Assembly (NCBI GenBank): GCA_944322645.1
Contig: CALUPI010000030.1
Coordinates: forward strand, 1 to 48,445
Reading direction: 5' to 3'
DNA length: 48,445 nucleotides
Source: an uncultured Ureaplasma sp.
GTDB lineage: Bacteria; Bacillota_I; Bacilli_A; Mycoplasmatales; Mycoplasmoidaceae
The notes below the pieces were generated by a model, which had not been told where the DNA came from, searched no databases, and saw only the letters and a program-made list of their open reading frames with translations. Position 1 is the stretch's first letter; every line of letters begins with the position of its first letter. The translations under genes and the position numbers were made by a program. Shown in pieces: positions 9,110-18,335 of this stretch.

Positions 9110-9111
9110 AA

Positions 9112-10090
9112 TTATTTATTATAATACATTTTTATAATAAAGTTATCATAAAAAAATGTATAAAGCATACTCTTTTTAGACAAGTCACTTCTATATAAAG
9201 TTATAAGTGAATTTATTGTATCTTTTAGAATTAAATATCTTTGGGCATATGGCAAATGATTTAATTCTGAATAATAATGATATCTTTGATAATTATAATA
9301 GTGCATAAATTTATTAACAATTTTTTGAATTCTACAAATGTTTTTGCTATTACAAATTCTTTCTTACAACAATGATCTATTGTTTTATGAAATCTATCAA
9401 TGCAACCATTATATTGAGGTTGACCAAGAGGAATTAAACGCTTTTAATATTTTATTATCTATACAGAATTTTCTAAACTCATTTAAATGAATAAAATTAT
9501 CTCCTTTAAACATCATTGTATTATCACTTTGAATTGATTTGATTTGTATATTATTATTTAAAAATATTTATAACCAATATTTAAATGTTTTATCATACTA
9601 TTAGTAGATTGATTTTCTAAGATTGCACTATAAACAAATATATATGATTTGTCAATCATATTAAAAATTGTGTTTTTTTGCCTTAAACTATTCTCCTTAA
9701 CACCCAATATTTTAAGTTCAGGCCGAACGTTTCCAAGTTCAACATATTTTGCTTTAAGAGGATGTTAAGTAGATTTTCAATATCGAGTTTAAATGTTATA
9801 CCAAGCTTTGCATTTAATATTGTTTTAATTGTATTTATGATATTTCAGAAAATGGTTAACAAATCTAATTAAAAGTTTTTGATTATTTTTGCTTTCAAAT
9901 TAACTTTTGATTGAATTATTGAAGTATTTAATATAATCTTTATAAATTATTAAAATTTTATAAAATTGAGCATTTTTTGACAAATTTTTAAACTTTTTTG
10001 TATGATTTAGGTTTAAAAAATAAAATTTATTTTTTAGTATACTTATAGGTTCTTTCAAAATTGTAGTTTTTGAAGTGGATAATCCCTATC
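9112..10090 (-). pseudogene. Decayed transposase of an IS3/IS481-like insertion sequence
   Basis: Conceptual translation gives successive pieces of a retroviral-type integrase (rve) core in different frames. These are KYVELGNVRPELKILG, then IKSIQSDNTMMFKG with one catalytic Asp, then LIPLGQPQYNGCIDRFHKT (the G-Q-P-x-x-N-G-x-x-E/D-R-x-H motif), and finally YNYQRYHYYSELNHLPYA. At least three frameshifts (near 9570, 9440 and 9310) and an in-frame stop break it. An N-terminal basic helical part with more breaks extends to about 10090. No terminal inverted repeats could be assigned. It looks long dead and separates core genes from the helicase operon. Confidence 0.75.
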
Positions 10091-10254
10091 ATAAATTGAT
10101 CGAATTTTTGTTTACTTCATATAGAAATATTAACAAATTTTGGTTGTCTAAAAAGAATGTGATTTATAGACTATAAAAAAAAAAAAAAAAAACTTTTAAT
10201 TGTGATATACTTATTTCCATAAGTAAATTTTAAAGAAAAGAGATTAGTAATATT
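10091..10254 (+). promoter_or_regulatory. Leader of the helicase operon with poly(A)18 and extended -10
   Basis: An uninterrupted run of 18 A at 10175-10192 is followed 13 nt later by TATACT (10206-10211) with TG one base upstream, an extended -10 element. With normal spacing the -35 position would fall inside the A tract. The first ATG is at 10255, preceded by AAAGAAAAGAGA. The rest of the stretch holds no gene. Confidence 0.55.
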
Positions 10255-10506
10255 ATGGAACCATGATTATGTAGAGTTATTGATGTTGTAGGAATAACCA
10301 TACCATTAATTTTTATATGTTTATTAATTTTATCAATTTTTAATATTGTAGATTATGTAAAAGAATATAAAAATACATATGATAAAACCTTAACAAATAA
10401 GTCATTTGCACTTTTTGTTACATGAATTATAATAGGTATTATTTCGTTAATTGGAATGATAGCTGTACCAGTAGGATTATTTGTTTCATTTCCTAATATT
10501 TGATAG
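10255..10506 (+). CDS. Small two-helix membrane protein
   Basis: An 83-aa frame, ATG at 10255 to TAG at 10504-10506, has three TGA Trp codons. It carries two hydrophobic segments: VVGITIPLIFICLLILSIF (about residues 11-29) and WIIIGIISLIGMIAVPVGLF (about 57-76). A short polar loop rich in Lys and Tyr lies between them. No family is recognised. It ends 17 nt before the first helicase gene, on the same strand, so the two are probably cotranscribed and may act together. The frame is too short for ordinary ORF filters because its TGA codons break it. Confidence 0.7.
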
Positions 10507-10523
10507 AAAAAAGAGGTTTATTT

Positions 10524-13500
10524 ATGGAAAACAAAGAAAATATTAAACTATTAAATTTAATTTCATACAATCAAGAAAACACAATTATTAATAAAAATTC
10601 AGTATATTTTGACCTTTATGATTTTGGTTTAAATAAAGATTTTTTTGTTGACAATTTTTTCAACACTTCTTATACAAAATTTGAGGTTAATTTATATAAA
10701 AATTTTGAAGAAAAAATTAAAAACTTACAAAATGCTAAATCTATTAGTGACTATAATAATCTCATTAAAGAAATCCAATCTTCAAATGAATTTTTAAAAA
10801 ATCTACCAACTTTTGGAAATGAATATAATGATCCAAATTCTTTTTTAGTTAATAAAAATTCAGTTTATAAAGAATTTATTGATAACTTATTAAAAGTTTA
10901 TCCTTCATTATTTATAGAAAATTCTAATGATAATTCAAAAATGAATTTAGGATATGGTTTAATAAGTGGTAATATTAATTCTAATAAGTTTATAAATACT
11001 TTTATATTTAATCGTGAATTACAATGAACAATTGATTTTTTAACAATTAAATTTACTTTAGGTAATGAAATTATAATTAATGAACCTGCAATGTTATATA
11101 TGTTAGATTATGCAGGTAATTATAATATTGAACCTAAATTTAGTTTTTCAAATAAGGATGAATTAGTTTCATATTTAACACAATTATTTAATTATCCAAT
11201 TGAAATTTCTAATATTGATTCACTTTCAAAAATGTTTATACAAAATAATTCTAAAAATTTACCAATTAAATTTTATGAATTATATGCTTTTGTAAAATAT
11301 AATTTAGAAAAATCTAAGTTAGATGCTGAAATTGAAAAGATTCAATATAAAGATATTGTTGTGTTAAATACGCCAATGAAAAATGATGCAAAATATTATA
11401 AAGATTTAGAAATTAATTCAGCACCATTAATTCAAATTAATAAACCTTTAAATTTAACTCAAAAATTAGCATTAAGATCTGCAGTTAATGAAAATACATT
11501 AATATATGGACCTACTGGAACTGGTAAGTCTGAGCTTTTATCTACTATTATTGCAAATTTGATGTCTAAAAATGAATCAATATTAATGACTGCTGACAAC
11601 CAAGAAGCAATTAATGTAGTTTATGATAGACTTAATAACTTACGTGATTTTGCATTAAAAATTGATGAAAATTATGATGATAAAGAAATTTTCTTTAACC
11701 AAATTTTTAGATTAATTTCTAAGCTTGGAAACTTTACAACTAACACACCACAATTTAGAAAGAAAACATTGACTATTGAACAATTTACTAAAGATAATGA
11801 AAGAGCTCTAGATTATAATCATTTAAATCAAAAATTTTTAAATAATATTAAGGAATATTTAGAATTTTGTACTAAGAGAGATAGTAACAGTCATGATTTT
11901 AAATCATATTTAATCGCTAAGGATAATATTCAAAAGTTTATAGATAATAATATTGATGCAATTAGAGAAGTTTTTAAACAATATGCTCATAAATATCCAA
12001 GATTATCAAATGAAGTTGATTTTATTACTAAAATTAGCGAATATGATATATATGTAAATGAGTATAATTTGGATAGTGAAACGTTGTCAAATATTAGTGA
12101 TAAATATTCAGAATTTTTAATTTTTTTATCTAATTTTGGATATAAAGATTTATCATATATAGATTATTCTGAACTTGTTGCTAATAATGAAAAATTAATA
12201 AGATTCTTAGATGATAATTGATTATCTAATGATGTTAATTTTATAGATGAATTAAATAAAGATCCGAATTTATTATTAGACAATTATAATGATGCTATAA
12301 AATTAAGAGACATTATTAGACGTAGTTGTACTGACGGTAAAAATGATGAATGATTTAAAAAAGTAATGACATGATTATTTACAAACAAAAATAATCATGA
12401 AGAATTTTTACATAGGGTTTCAGTGGCAACTGGAGATAAGGATGCATTAATTGGTATTGTTAATTATTTTAAAGGTACTTACAATAATAGAATATTAAAT
12501 AAAAAACTTACTAAAAAGTATCCAACTGATCCTAAAGAAATAAATAAGTATATGTCCTTATTGGAAGCGGTTAGAATATTTTATTTAATTTTTAAAAAAT
12601 CGTCTGGAAATATTGAATATATTAAATGTTTTTATGACAAAATTGACAATTATAAAGATATTTTTGCACCATTAAATGTTTTCTTTTATCTAAATAAAAA
12701 ATTATTGTCTGAAGCATTTATTAATATGTTTAATAAAAAAATTGTTTATTTTGATGATGAAATTATAAATTTATTTTATAAATTTAAATTAAATCAAATT
12801 AGTAATTATTTAAATATTTTAAATAATTATCAGGCTGAAATATTATATGGAAATTCACAATTTATTAATTTTGATATTGATATTTCAGTTAATGAATATA
12901 TTCGTGATAATTTAGATTGCATTAATAAGTTAAATTCTGCTTTTTATCAAATTTTTGTTGATTTCATTAAAAATAAAATTATTACTAAAGATCAAGACTT
13001 TAAAGACAAAATTATTACAATGTATAAATTAGCTTCTAATAATCAACAATTACCAGAAGTAAATGAATTTATTTCGCAATATTATGAACAATTAAAAGTA
13101 TTATTCCCTGTTTGATTTATGCTTCCAAAATTAGTTGCTGAATATGTTCCATTAGAGAAAGAATTATTTGATAATGTAATTATTGATGAAGCAAATCAAA
13201 TGGAATTAGAAAAATCTTTCTCAATATTATATAGAGCTAAAAAGGCTATTATTTCTGGTGATTCAAAGCAATTACCAGCTAATGTTAGTGAGTTTGTTGT
13301 TCAAAATATTTCTAAATCTTCAAAAATTGATGAAATTAATTTTAATGATGCATTATCATTATTAGATAGAGCAAAAACATTATTTTGAAATTCCTATGAT
13401 TTAAAAAATCATTATCGTTCGAATGATTATAGATTAGTAGATTATTCTAATGTTAATTTTTATGATAGAGAATTAATTTATGTTTCACAAAATAAAAACC

Positions 13501-14399
13501 AAATATATCCTTTTGAAATAATTACTTTAGATTCGACTAAATATGAAAATGGTGTAAATGAAGTTGAAGCTCAAAGAGTGTTATTTGAATTAAAGAAAAT
13601 TATTCAAGATTTTGAATCATCAAAATTGTTTTCAACATTTGCAATCGGATGTTTTACTAATGAACAAGCTGAGTATATTCTAAAAAATATTTATGATAAT
13701 CCTTCTGAAAATGATGATGTTATTAGATTAATAAGAGATAATAAATTGAGAATTTGTCATATTAATGCATTGCAAGGTAGAGAAGCTGATTTTGTAATTA
13801 TAAGTATGGTATATAATGAAAAAACTACTGATTTTAGTGAATTTGCTTCAAGAAATGCTAATAATTACTTAAATGTTGCTATTACTCGGGCTAGATATAA
13901 AAATTTAATAATTAGAAGTATTGATTTTGATCGTGCTAATAAATCTTGAGGATCAGCAGCACCTACTTTATCTAAATATTTAAAATATGTTGATGAATTA
14001 GAAAATTACATTAAAAACAATATTAATGATGATACACCTTCTTTCCATGGCCATGCTATAAGTTCAGCATTTAAGGATGAATTATGTGAAAGATTAAATA
14101 ATTATTTTGAGAAAAATAATTCAAAATATAGATGTATTCAAAATGTTAAAATTGGAAGTTATGTTGTTGATATTGCTATATACACAAATTCAATTAAAGA
14201 TATTAAATTAGTATTAATGTTAAATGAATATAAAAAATATATCACTCTTGATGAATTCTTGGTAGATTTAGACATTTTCTCATTATTAGAAAGCAAAGGC
14301 TATAATGTTTATTGAGCTCAAGAAACATTGTGAATTAGAGATCCAAATGAAGTTTTAAGAACTATTTCAAATATTTTAAGTGAACAAGAAAAAGAATAG
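10524..14399 (+). CDS. SF1 helicase-nuclease fusion, paralog 1 (DNA2/NAM7-like)
   Basis: A 1291-aa protein read in one frame with many TGA Trp codons. Residues 1-320 form an N-terminal domain of unknown role. The UPF1/DNA2-like helicase follows: Q-motif-like LTQKLALRS, Walker A GPTGTGKS (329-336), a roughly 550-residue helical insert, Walker B IIDEANQ (D888, E889), motif III GDSKQLP (912-918), motif V ALQGREAD (near 1084) and motif VI NVAITRAR (1117-1124). The C-terminus (about 1175-1291) resembles the MTES_1575/PD-(D/E)XK endonuclease domain, with D1216 in VVDIAIY and E1235-x-K1237 in LNEYKKY. The start at 10524 (MENKENIKLL) has AGAGG and matches paralog 2. Role inferred: DNA processing or defence. 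Confidence 0.85.
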
Positions 14400-14408
14400 G
14401 AGTTAATT

Positions 14409-17400
14409 ATGGAAAATATTAAAGAACTTAATCTTATTACTTATACTAGAGAAACAATTAATTTAGTTGGTAATGATGAAATTGTTGATATTAATAATTT
14501 TTTAGATCTTGAAACATTAAACTCTAATTTTTTTAAAAACGGCCCAGTTACAATTAATCTTAATATATATAGAGATTTTGAAGAACAAATCAAATCTCTT
14601 GAAAATGCAGAATCTATTGATGCATATAATAAATTAATTATTAATATTAAAAAAACAAATTCAAACTTATTTCATGATTTAAAAGAGTTTGGAATCGAAT
14701 ATAATGATAAGAACAACTTTTTAGTTAATAAAAACAATATTTATGTTCAATTTATTGAAACTTTACAATCAATTTATCCTAAAGTATTAAAAAAATGATT
14801 GAATCCTGAAGCTTGAAATAATGATGAACAACTTTATTTATCATTTGGATTAATATCTGGAATGGTTAATCCTAATCACCCTATTAATACATTTATATTT
14901 AATAGAAAATTATCTCTTAATAAGGACTTTTTAACTATTCATTTAAATCTAGATGGCAAAATGATTATTAATGATAAGGCTATTCTTTATTTATTAGATT
15001 TTGCTAATAATTATGTTGTTGATTTTAAAAATGAATTTGCAACTACTGAAGAATTTTTATCTTATGTTTCTGAAATTATCAATTATCCAGTTCCATTAAT
15101 TGAAGAATCTTCTTTAGTTTCTTATCTAAATTGTTTTAATAAAAATAAATCTACATTAAAATTTATAAATTCTTATACTTTTATTTCATATAATCTTGAA
15201 AAATCAAAATTGATTCAAGAAGACGAAAAGATTAAACCAAATGAAGTTACAATATTAAATACTCCATTAAAAAATGATATAAATTTTTATAAAGAACAAG
15301 AAATTAATGGTGCACCTTTAGTTCAAATAAATAAACCTTTAAATATTTACCAAAAATTTGCCTTAAGAAGTGCAATTAATGAAAATACATTAATATATGG
15401 TCCACCAGGAACTGGAAAATCCGAAATTATTGCTAATATTGTTGCAAATTTAATGGTAAATAATGTAACAGTTGTGATGACTTGTGAAAAACAAGAAGCC
15501 ATGAATGTGGTTTATTCAAGACTTAATGAATTAAGAGATTTTAGTTTAAAGATTGATAAGGAATATGATGATAAATTTACATTTTTTAAACAAATTTCTA
15601 ATTTATTCAATAAATTAGGGAATATTACTTCTCCTGCTCCAAGAGGAGGATTTAAAAGAAAAGTTGATGATGTAAATAAGTTTATTAATGAAAATCAAAG
15701 AGCATCAGATTATTACTTATTAAATAAAGAATTTTCTACATTAATAAAAGATTATATAAATTTCTGTAATACTAGAGATAGTAATAATAATGATTATAAA
15801 GATTATTTAATTGCAAAAGCAAACATTAATAGATTTATTAAAGATCGTTCTTCTGAAATTTTAGATATCTATAATAAGTTTGGTGCTTCATATCCTAGAA
15901 TTCAAAACGAAATTGATTTTATTATTAAAATATCTGAATATGATAACTATAGTCAGGTTTGAAATATTTCTAAGAATGAAGTTATTGAATTAATAAGATC
16001 AAAAAATGATTTTGTTACATTTTTAGTAAATGATTGTGGAATTAAAAATTTGAATTATATTTCAATTGATACTATTACTAATAATGTTAAATTATTAGAT
16101 AAATATTTACAAGATACATGATTATCAAATGATTCTGCTTTTATTGAAAATTTAAAAGAAGATCCAAAATTACTTTCAAAAGCTTTTGAATTAATGACTC
16201 AAATTAAGGATTCAGTTACTCGTGCTTTTAGTGGTAATGGCATTGATAAGGATAAAGCTGCTAAAAAAATTCATGCAACAATTGAATGATTAGTAAGAAA
16301 CTCTGCAAAGCATGGAGAATTTATTTCAAAAATTAGTAAATTATCAGATGATCAAAAAATATATGGAATTTATAACTATTATGTAGACGGTAGTCTTAAT
16401 GTTCATAAGAAATTATTATTTAAATACCCTTCAAATGAACAAAAAATTAAAGAATTAAAAGCAATATATAATTGTATTTTGTTGTTTAATCAAATTAAGT
16501 TACAAAATATTAATGCTAGTAGCTTAATAGAATTAATAAAGGTAAATAATGGTAAAGAAGTGTTTACACCTATTAATACTTGATTTTTAATTAATAAAAA
16601 GTATTTAAATGAACAATTCTTTGATGTTTTCAATAAAAAAATTGAATATTTCAATGAAGAAATAATTAATAGTTTTTATAAGTCAAAACTTAATGAAATT
16701 GGTTCATATTTAAGAGTGGAAAATGATTTCCAAGCAGAAATATTATCATCAAATAAATTTATTGCAAATTTGAATATTAATAACACAATTAAGGATTATA
16801 TTAGAAGTAATACTGATTATGTAGCTAAATTAAATGGAATTATGTATGAAATTTTTGTTGATTATTTAAGAAATAAAATTGCTAATCAAGATGATAATTT
16901 TAAACAAAAATTGTTAGAAATGGCAAAATTATCATACAATGTTAACAATTTACCTGAAGTAGATGAATTTGTTGAAAAATATTATGAACAATTAAAAGTA
17001 ATTTTCCCTGTTTGATTCTTAAAACCAGAATTAGTAGCTCACTATATTCCATTTGAAAAAGAATTATTTGATTATATTATTTTTGACGAAGCATCTCAAA
17101 TGGTGTTAGAAAAATCATATGCTCTTTTATATAGAGCTAAAAAAGCTGTAATTTGTGGTGACCCAAAACAATTACAACCTGAAGTTGGAGAATATATCAA
17201 AGAAAAATTACCAAAATCAAATGAAATTGACAAGATTAACTTTGATTTAGCAATTTCATTATTGGATCGTACAAAAACTTCCTATTGAAACACTTTTTAT
17301 CTAAGAAACCATTATCGTTCTGTTGACCACAATTTAATTGATTACTCAAATTGACATTTTTATAATAATGAATTAATATATGTTTCTAAAAACAAAAATA

Positions 17401-18296
17401 AGATTCCACCATTTGTTATAAACACAATTAATGGTAAGTGTGTTGACAACGTTAATGAATTAGAAGCAAAAGAATTAATAAAATATTTAAAAGAAATATT
17501 AGTTGGACCTGATGCCAATAAATTTAATGATATTTTGCTAATCACATTTACTGATGAACAAGCAACATATATTAAAAAATTAATCTTTGATAATCCAATT
17601 GAAAATGATGAAATTATTAGATTAATTAAAGATAATAGATTGGGAATCAACTTTATCCCAAGTTTACAAGGTTCTGAAGCAGATTTATGTTTAATAAGTA
17701 CAGTGTTTGATGTTGATTCAAAAGATTTAGGTTTACTTTCATTAAGAGATGCTGCAAATTTCTTAAATGTTGCTATTACTCGTGCTAAATATGAAAATCT
17801 TATTTTTAAGAGTTTAACTTATAAAAAAGCTGATATTGCATGAAATGGTAAGAACAAAGTATTTTTAAATTATGTTAGATATTTAGATGATCTTGAAGCA
17901 AGACTTACAATTGCTAAGAATGAAGGTGGAGAAAAACCAATTATTAATAATAATGTAAATAATTCTTCATTTAAATTAGAATTAATGGAAAAATTAACAG
18001 AATTTTTTGAAAAAACAAACTCTCCATACAAATGTGTAATGAATTTAAATATTGGTAGTTTTACAATTGATATTGCTATTTATAATCAAGATATTTCTGA
18101 TATTACATTAGTGTTAATGTTAAATGAATATAAAAAGTATGTTACTTATGAAGAATTTGTATGAGATTTAGATAAATTCTCATTATTAAAGAGTAGCGGA
18201 TATGATGTATTAATGCTTCAAGAAACAAATTGATTAGTTGATCCTGAAAGTGTGATACAAAACATAGATTCATTTATTAGAAACTTAAACAAATAA
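14409..18296 (+). CDS. SF1 helicase-nuclease fusion, paralog 2
   Basis: A 1295-aa tandem copy of the preceding gene, starting MENIKELNLITYTRET behind TAGGAGTTAATT and 9 nt after the previous stop. The architecture is the same: N-terminal domain, Walker A GPPGTGKS (331-338), long helical insert, Walker B FDEASQM (D893, E894), motif III GDPKQLQ (917-923), motif V SLQGSEAD, motif VI NVAITRAK (1120-1127), and the C-terminal nuclease-like domain with D1221 and E1240-x-K1242. Around Walker A the two proteins share well over half their residues, so this is a duplication followed by divergence. Motif V has Ser where the family usually has Arg. Transcription probably ends at the hairpin at 18301. Confidence 0.85.
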
Positions 18297-18300
18297 TTAA

Positions 18301-18335
18301 AAAATCAACTAACCTATAAATTAGTTGATTTTTAT
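18301..18335 (+). terminator. Bidirectional terminator between helicase operon and MFS gene
   Basis: AAAATCAACTAA (18301-18312) pairs with the T-rich arm at 18321-18332 around an eight-base loop. T runs follow on both strands, so it can end the plus-strand helicase operon and the converging minus-strand transporter gene. Confidence 0.8.

Follow-up and report, generated by a model that had tools for sequence, protein, structure and literature searches.

The window examined here, a 48,445-nucleotide stretch from an uncultured Ureaplasma sp. (genome G000), carries three same-strand genes that encode an 83-amino-acid (aa) membrane protein and two large tandem helicases, A and B. The helicase pair most likely descends from a helicase linked to the type IV secretion systems (T4SS) of mycoplasma integrative and conjugative elements (ICEs), an origin that the phylogeny supports well. 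The explanation that we prefer for the unit, and to which we give about even confidence, is that it is a chromosomally settled, tandemly duplicated offshoot of a T4SS-linked DUF4011-superfamily 1B (SF1B) helicase-Vsr-like protein. With a shrunken pilin-like partner, it would act on DNA at the membrane, most likely in exclusion or defence.

A tree of 35 proteins was built, with branch support from the Shimodaira-Hasegawa-like approximate likelihood-ratio test (SH-aLRT). A, B, their orthologs in the sister genome G003, a further copy on contig C31 of the window's own genome and the T4SS-linked copies of group g34 formed one clade with a support of 100, in which the C31 copy was sister to the window pair. 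It is because of this shared clade, and of the position of the C31 copy, that descent of the pair from a T4SS-linked helicase is the most likely origin. All the T4SS-linked copies tested fell in this clade, and the other clade members with visible flanks all sat in T4SS operons of the mycoplasma ICE-like kind, in two taxonomic families and in the window's own genome. Besides the latter, these loci are in G153 (L169), G155 (L224), G158 (L170 and L171) and G222 (L222). As A grouped with A of G003, and B with B of G003, the duplication predates the split between the two genomes.

The T4SS-linked operons run in the order pilin, VirB6-like protein, helicase, with a lipoprotein gene before the helicase in G158 and G222. 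The G158 pilin matched NF045849 with 40.6 bits (cut-off 40) and PF18895 with 28.1 bits (cut-off 26.6), and the VirB6-like (Mbov_0396) protein matched NF045889 with 75.9 bits (cut-off 70). A divergent VirB4 gene (NF045975, 781 bits) adjoins the pilin gene in G153 and G155. Downstream of the helicases lie genes for large proteins (1000-1500 aa) whose termini carry transmembrane segments; one of these proteins, from the window's own genome, matches the protein at the CDS19 position of the G002 ICE. The helicase gene lies within the transfer operon, between the VirB6-like or lipoprotein gene and the large surface-protein genes, and not at its edge. No VirD4 coupling protein (PF02534) was found in G153, G155, G158, G159 or G222.

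In the window's own genome, VirB4 is on contig C13 and VirD4 on C11. Contig C13 (the end of VirB4, pilin, VirB6-like protein, the start of a lipoprotein) and contig C31 (lipoprotein, helicase, lipoprotein, large proteins) overlap by exactly 127 identical bases at their ends, and the overlap keeps a single reading frame; adjacent contigs in the same assembly graph would be expected to do so. As the element has several copies, it is likely but not proven that the two contigs are joined. The contigs C31, C22, C13 and C11 (L174, L173, L200 and L234) appear to be scattered pieces of this multi-copy conjugative element; they carry VirB4, pilin, VirB6-like protein, a VirD4/TraG protein of 795 aa, BspA leucine-rich-repeat and ParA-like proteins and several surface proteins of 1000-1320 aa. 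The window unit has no gene for VirB4, VirD4, a channel protein or a DDE transposase beside it, and its locus lacks these hallmarks of a mycoplasma ICE.

A preliminary description of the window had proposed an undescribed system. Judged by their sequences, A and B are members of the known DUF4011-SF1 helicase-Vsr superfamily and are not Hhe or ProA proper, because the Hhe and ProA profiles match far under their full-length cut-offs and the N-terminus aligns with DUF4011 paralogs. The likeness to anti-phage SF1 helicase-nuclease families that had been pointed out was recovered: the best matches were to PDC-S37 (PADLOC PDLC05009; 9e-55 and 2.7e-50), ProA (NF058533; 7.5e-58) and Hhe (PDLC02194, NF042953; down to 1e-41). 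The curated full-length cut-offs were missed for both Hhe (NF042953, 142.5 of 2000 bits) and ProA (NF058533, 196 of 1500 bits), and the best PDC-S37 stretch covers about one quarter of that model, a profile with no stated cut-off.

The assignment of the central region to UPF1/DNA2-like SF1 helicases held. Pfam AAA_11 (4e-17 and 1.5e-13) and AAA_12 (1.5e-12 and 4.8e-14) matched the two proteins above cut-off, and the SF1B (UPF1-like) motifs I, Ia, II, III, IV, V and VI are all intact in both. An AlphaFold model of B residues 97-1295 had a mean per-residue confidence (pLDDT) of 66, with values mostly of 80-93 in the helicase and nuclease domains, and matched IGHMBP2, DNA2 and UPF1 structures in the PDB with Z scores of 18-20. 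The large insert, put earlier at ~550 residues, was located between motifs Ia and II; it comprises ~500 residues and is modelled as helical with a pLDDT under 50. The N-terminal domain had been called unknown. DUF4011 is below Pfam detection in A and B, and the region aligns with paralogs in which Pfam detects this domain at 39.8-42.3 bits (cut-off 22.2). In copy A of both species some motifs are derived, DEAN for DEAS and GDS for GDP/GDD, and copy B is unlike it in this; A of G003 (L045 2064-5927) additionally has GREFD and AISRA. The presence of derived motifs in A and not in B suggests that the two copies may have different jobs.

The whole-model comparison with the PDB barely covered the insert and the C-terminus, and the latter was therefore folded separately. 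Residues 1163-1295 of B, modelled alone, reached a pLDDT of 89 with the order alpha-beta-beta-beta-alpha-beta-alpha. The best structures were endonuclease-like 3hrl (Z 12.1, 2.0 A, 94 residues), the catalytic domain of I-Bth0305I (3r3p, Z 11.8) and Vsr (1vsr, Z 9.2), with Foldseek E-values of only ~0.002. Several of the next-best structures were mitochondrial ribosome and FASTK proteins, and the Vsr-like fold is therefore also found outside restriction enzymes. For PF18741 (MTES_1575/Vsr), which has a cut-off of 38.2 bits, A and B scored 21.5-22 bits and a core paralog 43.3 bits. The models thus predict a Vsr-type nuclease fold in A and B, a fold on which the preliminary description had made its proposal depend.

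The catalytic motif of Bacillota relatives reads E..D..IECDGxxYHS. In A, B and both G003 orthologs it reads ID...LNEYKKY, with D kept, E changed to N, D changed to Y and H lost. The classical active site therefore appears to be absent, and nuclease activity is doubtful because the ExD/H catalytic residues are replaced in both A and B. An E-Y-K (E-x-K) one residue downstream and out of register leaves a small doubt on the loss of the site. Of the PD-(D/E)XK-like nuclease announced earlier, the fold (here of Vsr/EDxHD type) stands and the catalytic residues do not; the idea of an active nuclease was dropped because these residues are not conserved.

The 83-aa protein has two hydrophobic helices, as described before, and its G003 ortholog is 64% identical. 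No family library matched it. When a profile of seven T4SS pilins was run against 763 small open reading frames (ORFs), the first hits after the true pilins were the G003 ortholog, with an E-value of 3.6e-4, and then the window copy, with 0.015. Alignment with pilins by hhalign gave a P value of 1.3e-4 and a probability of 46-54%, and none of 300 hydropathy-preserving shuffles did as well. Because of these matches and of its position directly upstream of the helicases, the protein is probably related to the pilins of the T4SS operons. Assignment as SecG was rejected, as the pilins of three genomes (G153, G155 and the own) outscore the SecG-like protein of G153. Matches to the 83-aa protein in G087, G213, G266 and G268 (E ~1e-4 to 1e-3), where neither T4SS nor helicase genes are recognised nearby, were taken as chance transmembrane matches.

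The layout of the unit was reproduced with ORFs called under genetic code 4 (Table 1). The gaps are 17 nt between the 83-aa gene and A and 9 nt between A and B, as first given; A starts at ATG 10524, preceded by the Shine-Dalgarno sequence AAAAGAGG. The two tandem paralogs, put at ~1290 aa each, are 46-47% identical. Of the bounds proposed for the block, the terminator was recovered as a hairpin of -11.7 kcal/mol (z -5.4). 'IS scar' is a fair label for the decayed multi-copy repeat on the other side, which has ~20 partial matches in the own genome and copies in G003, G007 and G008; no transposase is recognisable in it, and its ORFs match no protein family. A clean empty site could not be defined: in G007 the neighbour of rny is a large polymerase-like gene, and in G006 it has other neighbours, so that the site has been rearranged and a simple insertion scar is not demonstrable. 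A phage origin of the unit was rejected, since phage matches were weak and confined to the helicase core, and PHROGs gave nothing convincing for the 83-aa protein.

Table 1. Positions of the unit, its domains and its flanking elements in the window.
Feature	Position	Strand	Basis or remark
83-aa two-helix membrane protein gene	10255..10506	+	Putative distant relative of the pilin-like T4SS proteins Mbov_0395/CDS15
Helicase A, 1291 aa	10524..14399	+	N-terminus resembling DUF4011; SF1B helicase interrupted by a long helical insert; Vsr-like nuclease domain, degenerate
Helicase B, 1295 aa	14409..18296	+	Architecture as helicase A
B N-terminal domain, ~residues 1-300	14409..15308	+	Aligned with DUF4011 region of paralogs
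B Walker A GPPGTGKS, residues 331-338	15399..15422	+	Alignment
B insert, ~residues 480-850	15846..16958	+	AlphaFold model; helical, low model confidence
B motif II DEAS, residues 893-896	17085..17096	+	Alignment
B C-terminal Vsr/EDxHD nuclease fold, ~residues 1186-1295	17964..18293	+	ExD/H of relatives replaced by N-E-Y and V
Decayed repeat (IS-like scar; IS, insertion sequence), 5' of unit	9110..10254	.	Repeat matches
Terminator hairpin	18300..18333	.	RNA folding; between B and convergent rny-like gene

The tandem genes are not the sole paralogs. The own genome holds at least five loci of the superfamily: the window pair, the C31 copy (39% identical, with one in-frame stop), a fragment on C22, and proteins of 1382 aa on C8 and 1124 aa on C3. 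Superfamily members are present in all ten genomes of the genus. In five of these an Abi_2/AbiD (HEPN) gene lies directly upstream of a DUF4011-SF1 helicase-Vsr gene: it precedes the C8-type copy in G000, G003 and G007, and likewise the copies near mraZ-rsmH in G009 and G002 (own C8, L010 5537-10623; others, L046, L230, L047 and L048). This pairing looks like a two-gene split form of HEPN-helicase-Vsr giants and is a candidate defence pair. Elsewhere, the Spiroplasma citri plasmid pSciBLHMB-7 (L235 5480-9078) carries a DUF4011 helicase that is divided between two ORFs, with an NgoFVII-type restriction endonuclease in its vicinity.

Among 320 genomes of the order, 5 had members of the window clade at E below 1e-100, namely G000, G003 and three that belong to another family; a T4SS-linked helicase as query added G159 and G222. 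From a class-wide draw of 395 genomes only the window's own passed E 1e-120. A further scan of genome contigs, on very general helicase motifs, returned mostly distant Firmicutes and Proteobacteria and was useful solely for structure alignment. The three-gene arrangement, a search for which had been proposed, was found in G000 and the sister G003 alone (two of ten genus genomes), in the same order and beside the same rny and RNase J genes; the pair went undetected in the remaining eight, of which four are at least 95% complete. The spread is thus accessory, and not that of a housekeeping gene kept in single copy and in synteny by all related species. Between G000 and G003, the ratio of non-synonymous to synonymous differences (pN/pS) was 0.23 for A, 0.32 for B and 0.48 for the 83-aa gene, as compared with 0.14-0.31 for rny, pyrG, hisS and RNase J. 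By this measure A and B are under purifying selection like their housekeeping neighbours.

In the preferred explanation, the pilin-like protein would mark or anchor a complex at the membrane. A and B would be ATP-driven translocases. They would load on DNA crossing or reaching the membrane, for example conjugative or phage DNA on its way into the cell, and would unwind it or strip it; the Vsr-like domain would now mainly bind DNA. The net effect would most likely be exclusion of, or defence against, incoming DNA. We infer the complex, its tethering to the membrane and this role, which is preferred for three reasons: the named members of the superfamily are anti-phage, Abi_2 accompanies a paralog, and the unit has been retained in the absence of a channel. 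Several points weigh against it. No phage or ICE spacer speaks for defence, and A and B lack the residues that DNA cleavage requires. The resemblance to pilins is weak: NF045849 fails to recognise the 83-aa protein (no hit at E up to 1), two-helix proteins are easily matched by chance, and an ICE membrane protein of G002 (L201 5790-6089) scores nearly as well (E 0.023). Finally G003, which has the unit and in which VirB4 and VirD4 were undetected, is only 82% complete, so that the absence of a T4SS there is not firm. A more speculative account, which we think unlikely, sees a stripped-down membrane DNA machine left over from a T4SS operon, in which the two SF1B helicases, their Vsr domains being nuclease-dead, would work together with the pilin-like protein and without VirB4 or VirD4. 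Such a machine would either draw DNA through the membrane or close the cell to incoming conjugative DNA.

The unit might instead be an ordinary anti-phage helicase of Hhe, ProA or PDC-S37 type that was duplicated, its T4SS linkage reflecting defence cargo of ICEs and the 83-aa protein being an unrelated membrane effector or sensor. We regard this as somewhat unlikely. Anti-phage families are the best profile matches, a separate genus paralog follows Abi_2/AbiD in five genomes, and giant proteins joining an SF1 helicase, a Vsr restriction endonuclease and HEPN have been proposed as defence proteins (PMC3710099); however, the gene at the T4SS loci is inside the transfer operon, the effector nuclease site is eroded and the 83-aa protein resembles the operon's pilin. 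The main rival, quite unlikely in our estimate, is a DNA-transfer or uptake machine built around a simplified type IV channel. The helicase would process DNA there or deliver it to the channel, a function that the window unit would provide in trans. The operon position with VirB4, pilin and VirB6-like genes is conserved in two families, the five genomes in which VirD4 was not found would leave room for another motor, and the M. agalactiae ICE model, in the part of the source available, names no relaxase gene (PMC6030558). Yet the window unit has no channel genes, none is detectable in G003, the own genome does have VirD4, and described mycoplasma ICEs transfer without such a helicase, which is absent from their core genes as far as the available parts of the sources go (PMC7648426, PMC6813540, PMC6030558). 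A housekeeping DNA-repair or RNA helicase is very improbable: other superfamily members occur throughout the genus, and beside core genes in M. cynos and M. hyorhinis, and selection is as strong as on core genes, but the restricted distribution of the pair speaks against it and led to its rejection. That the unit is a decaying, functionless remnant of an inserted ICE is hardly credible; the repeat scar adjoins it and the C31 relative has an in-frame stop, whereas the unit itself has three intact genes, complete helicase motifs and a pN/pS of 0.23-0.48 across two species.

The superfamily is known; what is new here is its link to T4SS operons and the pilin-like/tandem helicase unit. In the literature searched, outside which lay most subscription papers, we found neither such a helicase within a T4SS operon nor such a unit, and no paper on PDC-S37 or on Hhe with DUF4011. 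If the link holds, mycoplasma conjugation loci would contain, within the transfer operon, a helicase-Vsr protein of an anti-phage superfamily. It would join two subjects that have been studied separately, ICE transfer and DNA-sensing defence helicases, and offer a candidate that can be tested for a part in handling or excluding DNA in ICEs whose model, as far as seen in the source, names no relaxase gene. The chromosomal tandem unit, free of an ICE, is a natural stand-alone version for such tests.

Among known systems, the mycoplasma ICE module (CDS14-CDS19, Mbov_0395-0399; PMC6030558, PMC6813540) is the one to which the sister helicases are tied, as these adjoin pilin, VirB6-like, VirB4, lipoprotein and CDS19-like genes. 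Such a helicase is not among the mycoplasma ICE genes named in the portions of these sources available, and the window unit lacks VirB4, VirD4, VirB6 and a transposase. The giants that combine HEPN, SF-I helicase and Vsr domains (MTES_1575; PMC3710099) share the joining of an SF1 helicase to a Vsr-type restriction endonuclease, and the genus paralogs adjoin an Abi_2 (HEPN) gene; in the window proteins, no HEPN, transglutaminase or winged helix-turn-helix domain was detected. UPF1, IGHMBP2 and DNA2 have the SF1B helicase core in common with A and B, but are not anti-phage and have no Vsr domain. The nuclease of DNA2 is N-terminal. PDC-S37, a candidate defence protein with a model of 1550 aa, is the best PADLOC match. 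The anti-phage protein ProA is the best NCBIfam match, its best stretch covering the second half of the helicase and the nuclease domain; the window proteins are shorter and their context is different. Hhe shares the domain order of A and B, with a DUF4011-like N-terminus, an SF1 helicase and a Vsr-like C-terminus, but is ~1800-1900 aa long as compared with 1295 aa here, where the helicases occur as tandem copies with replaced catalytic residues and a pilin-like partner.

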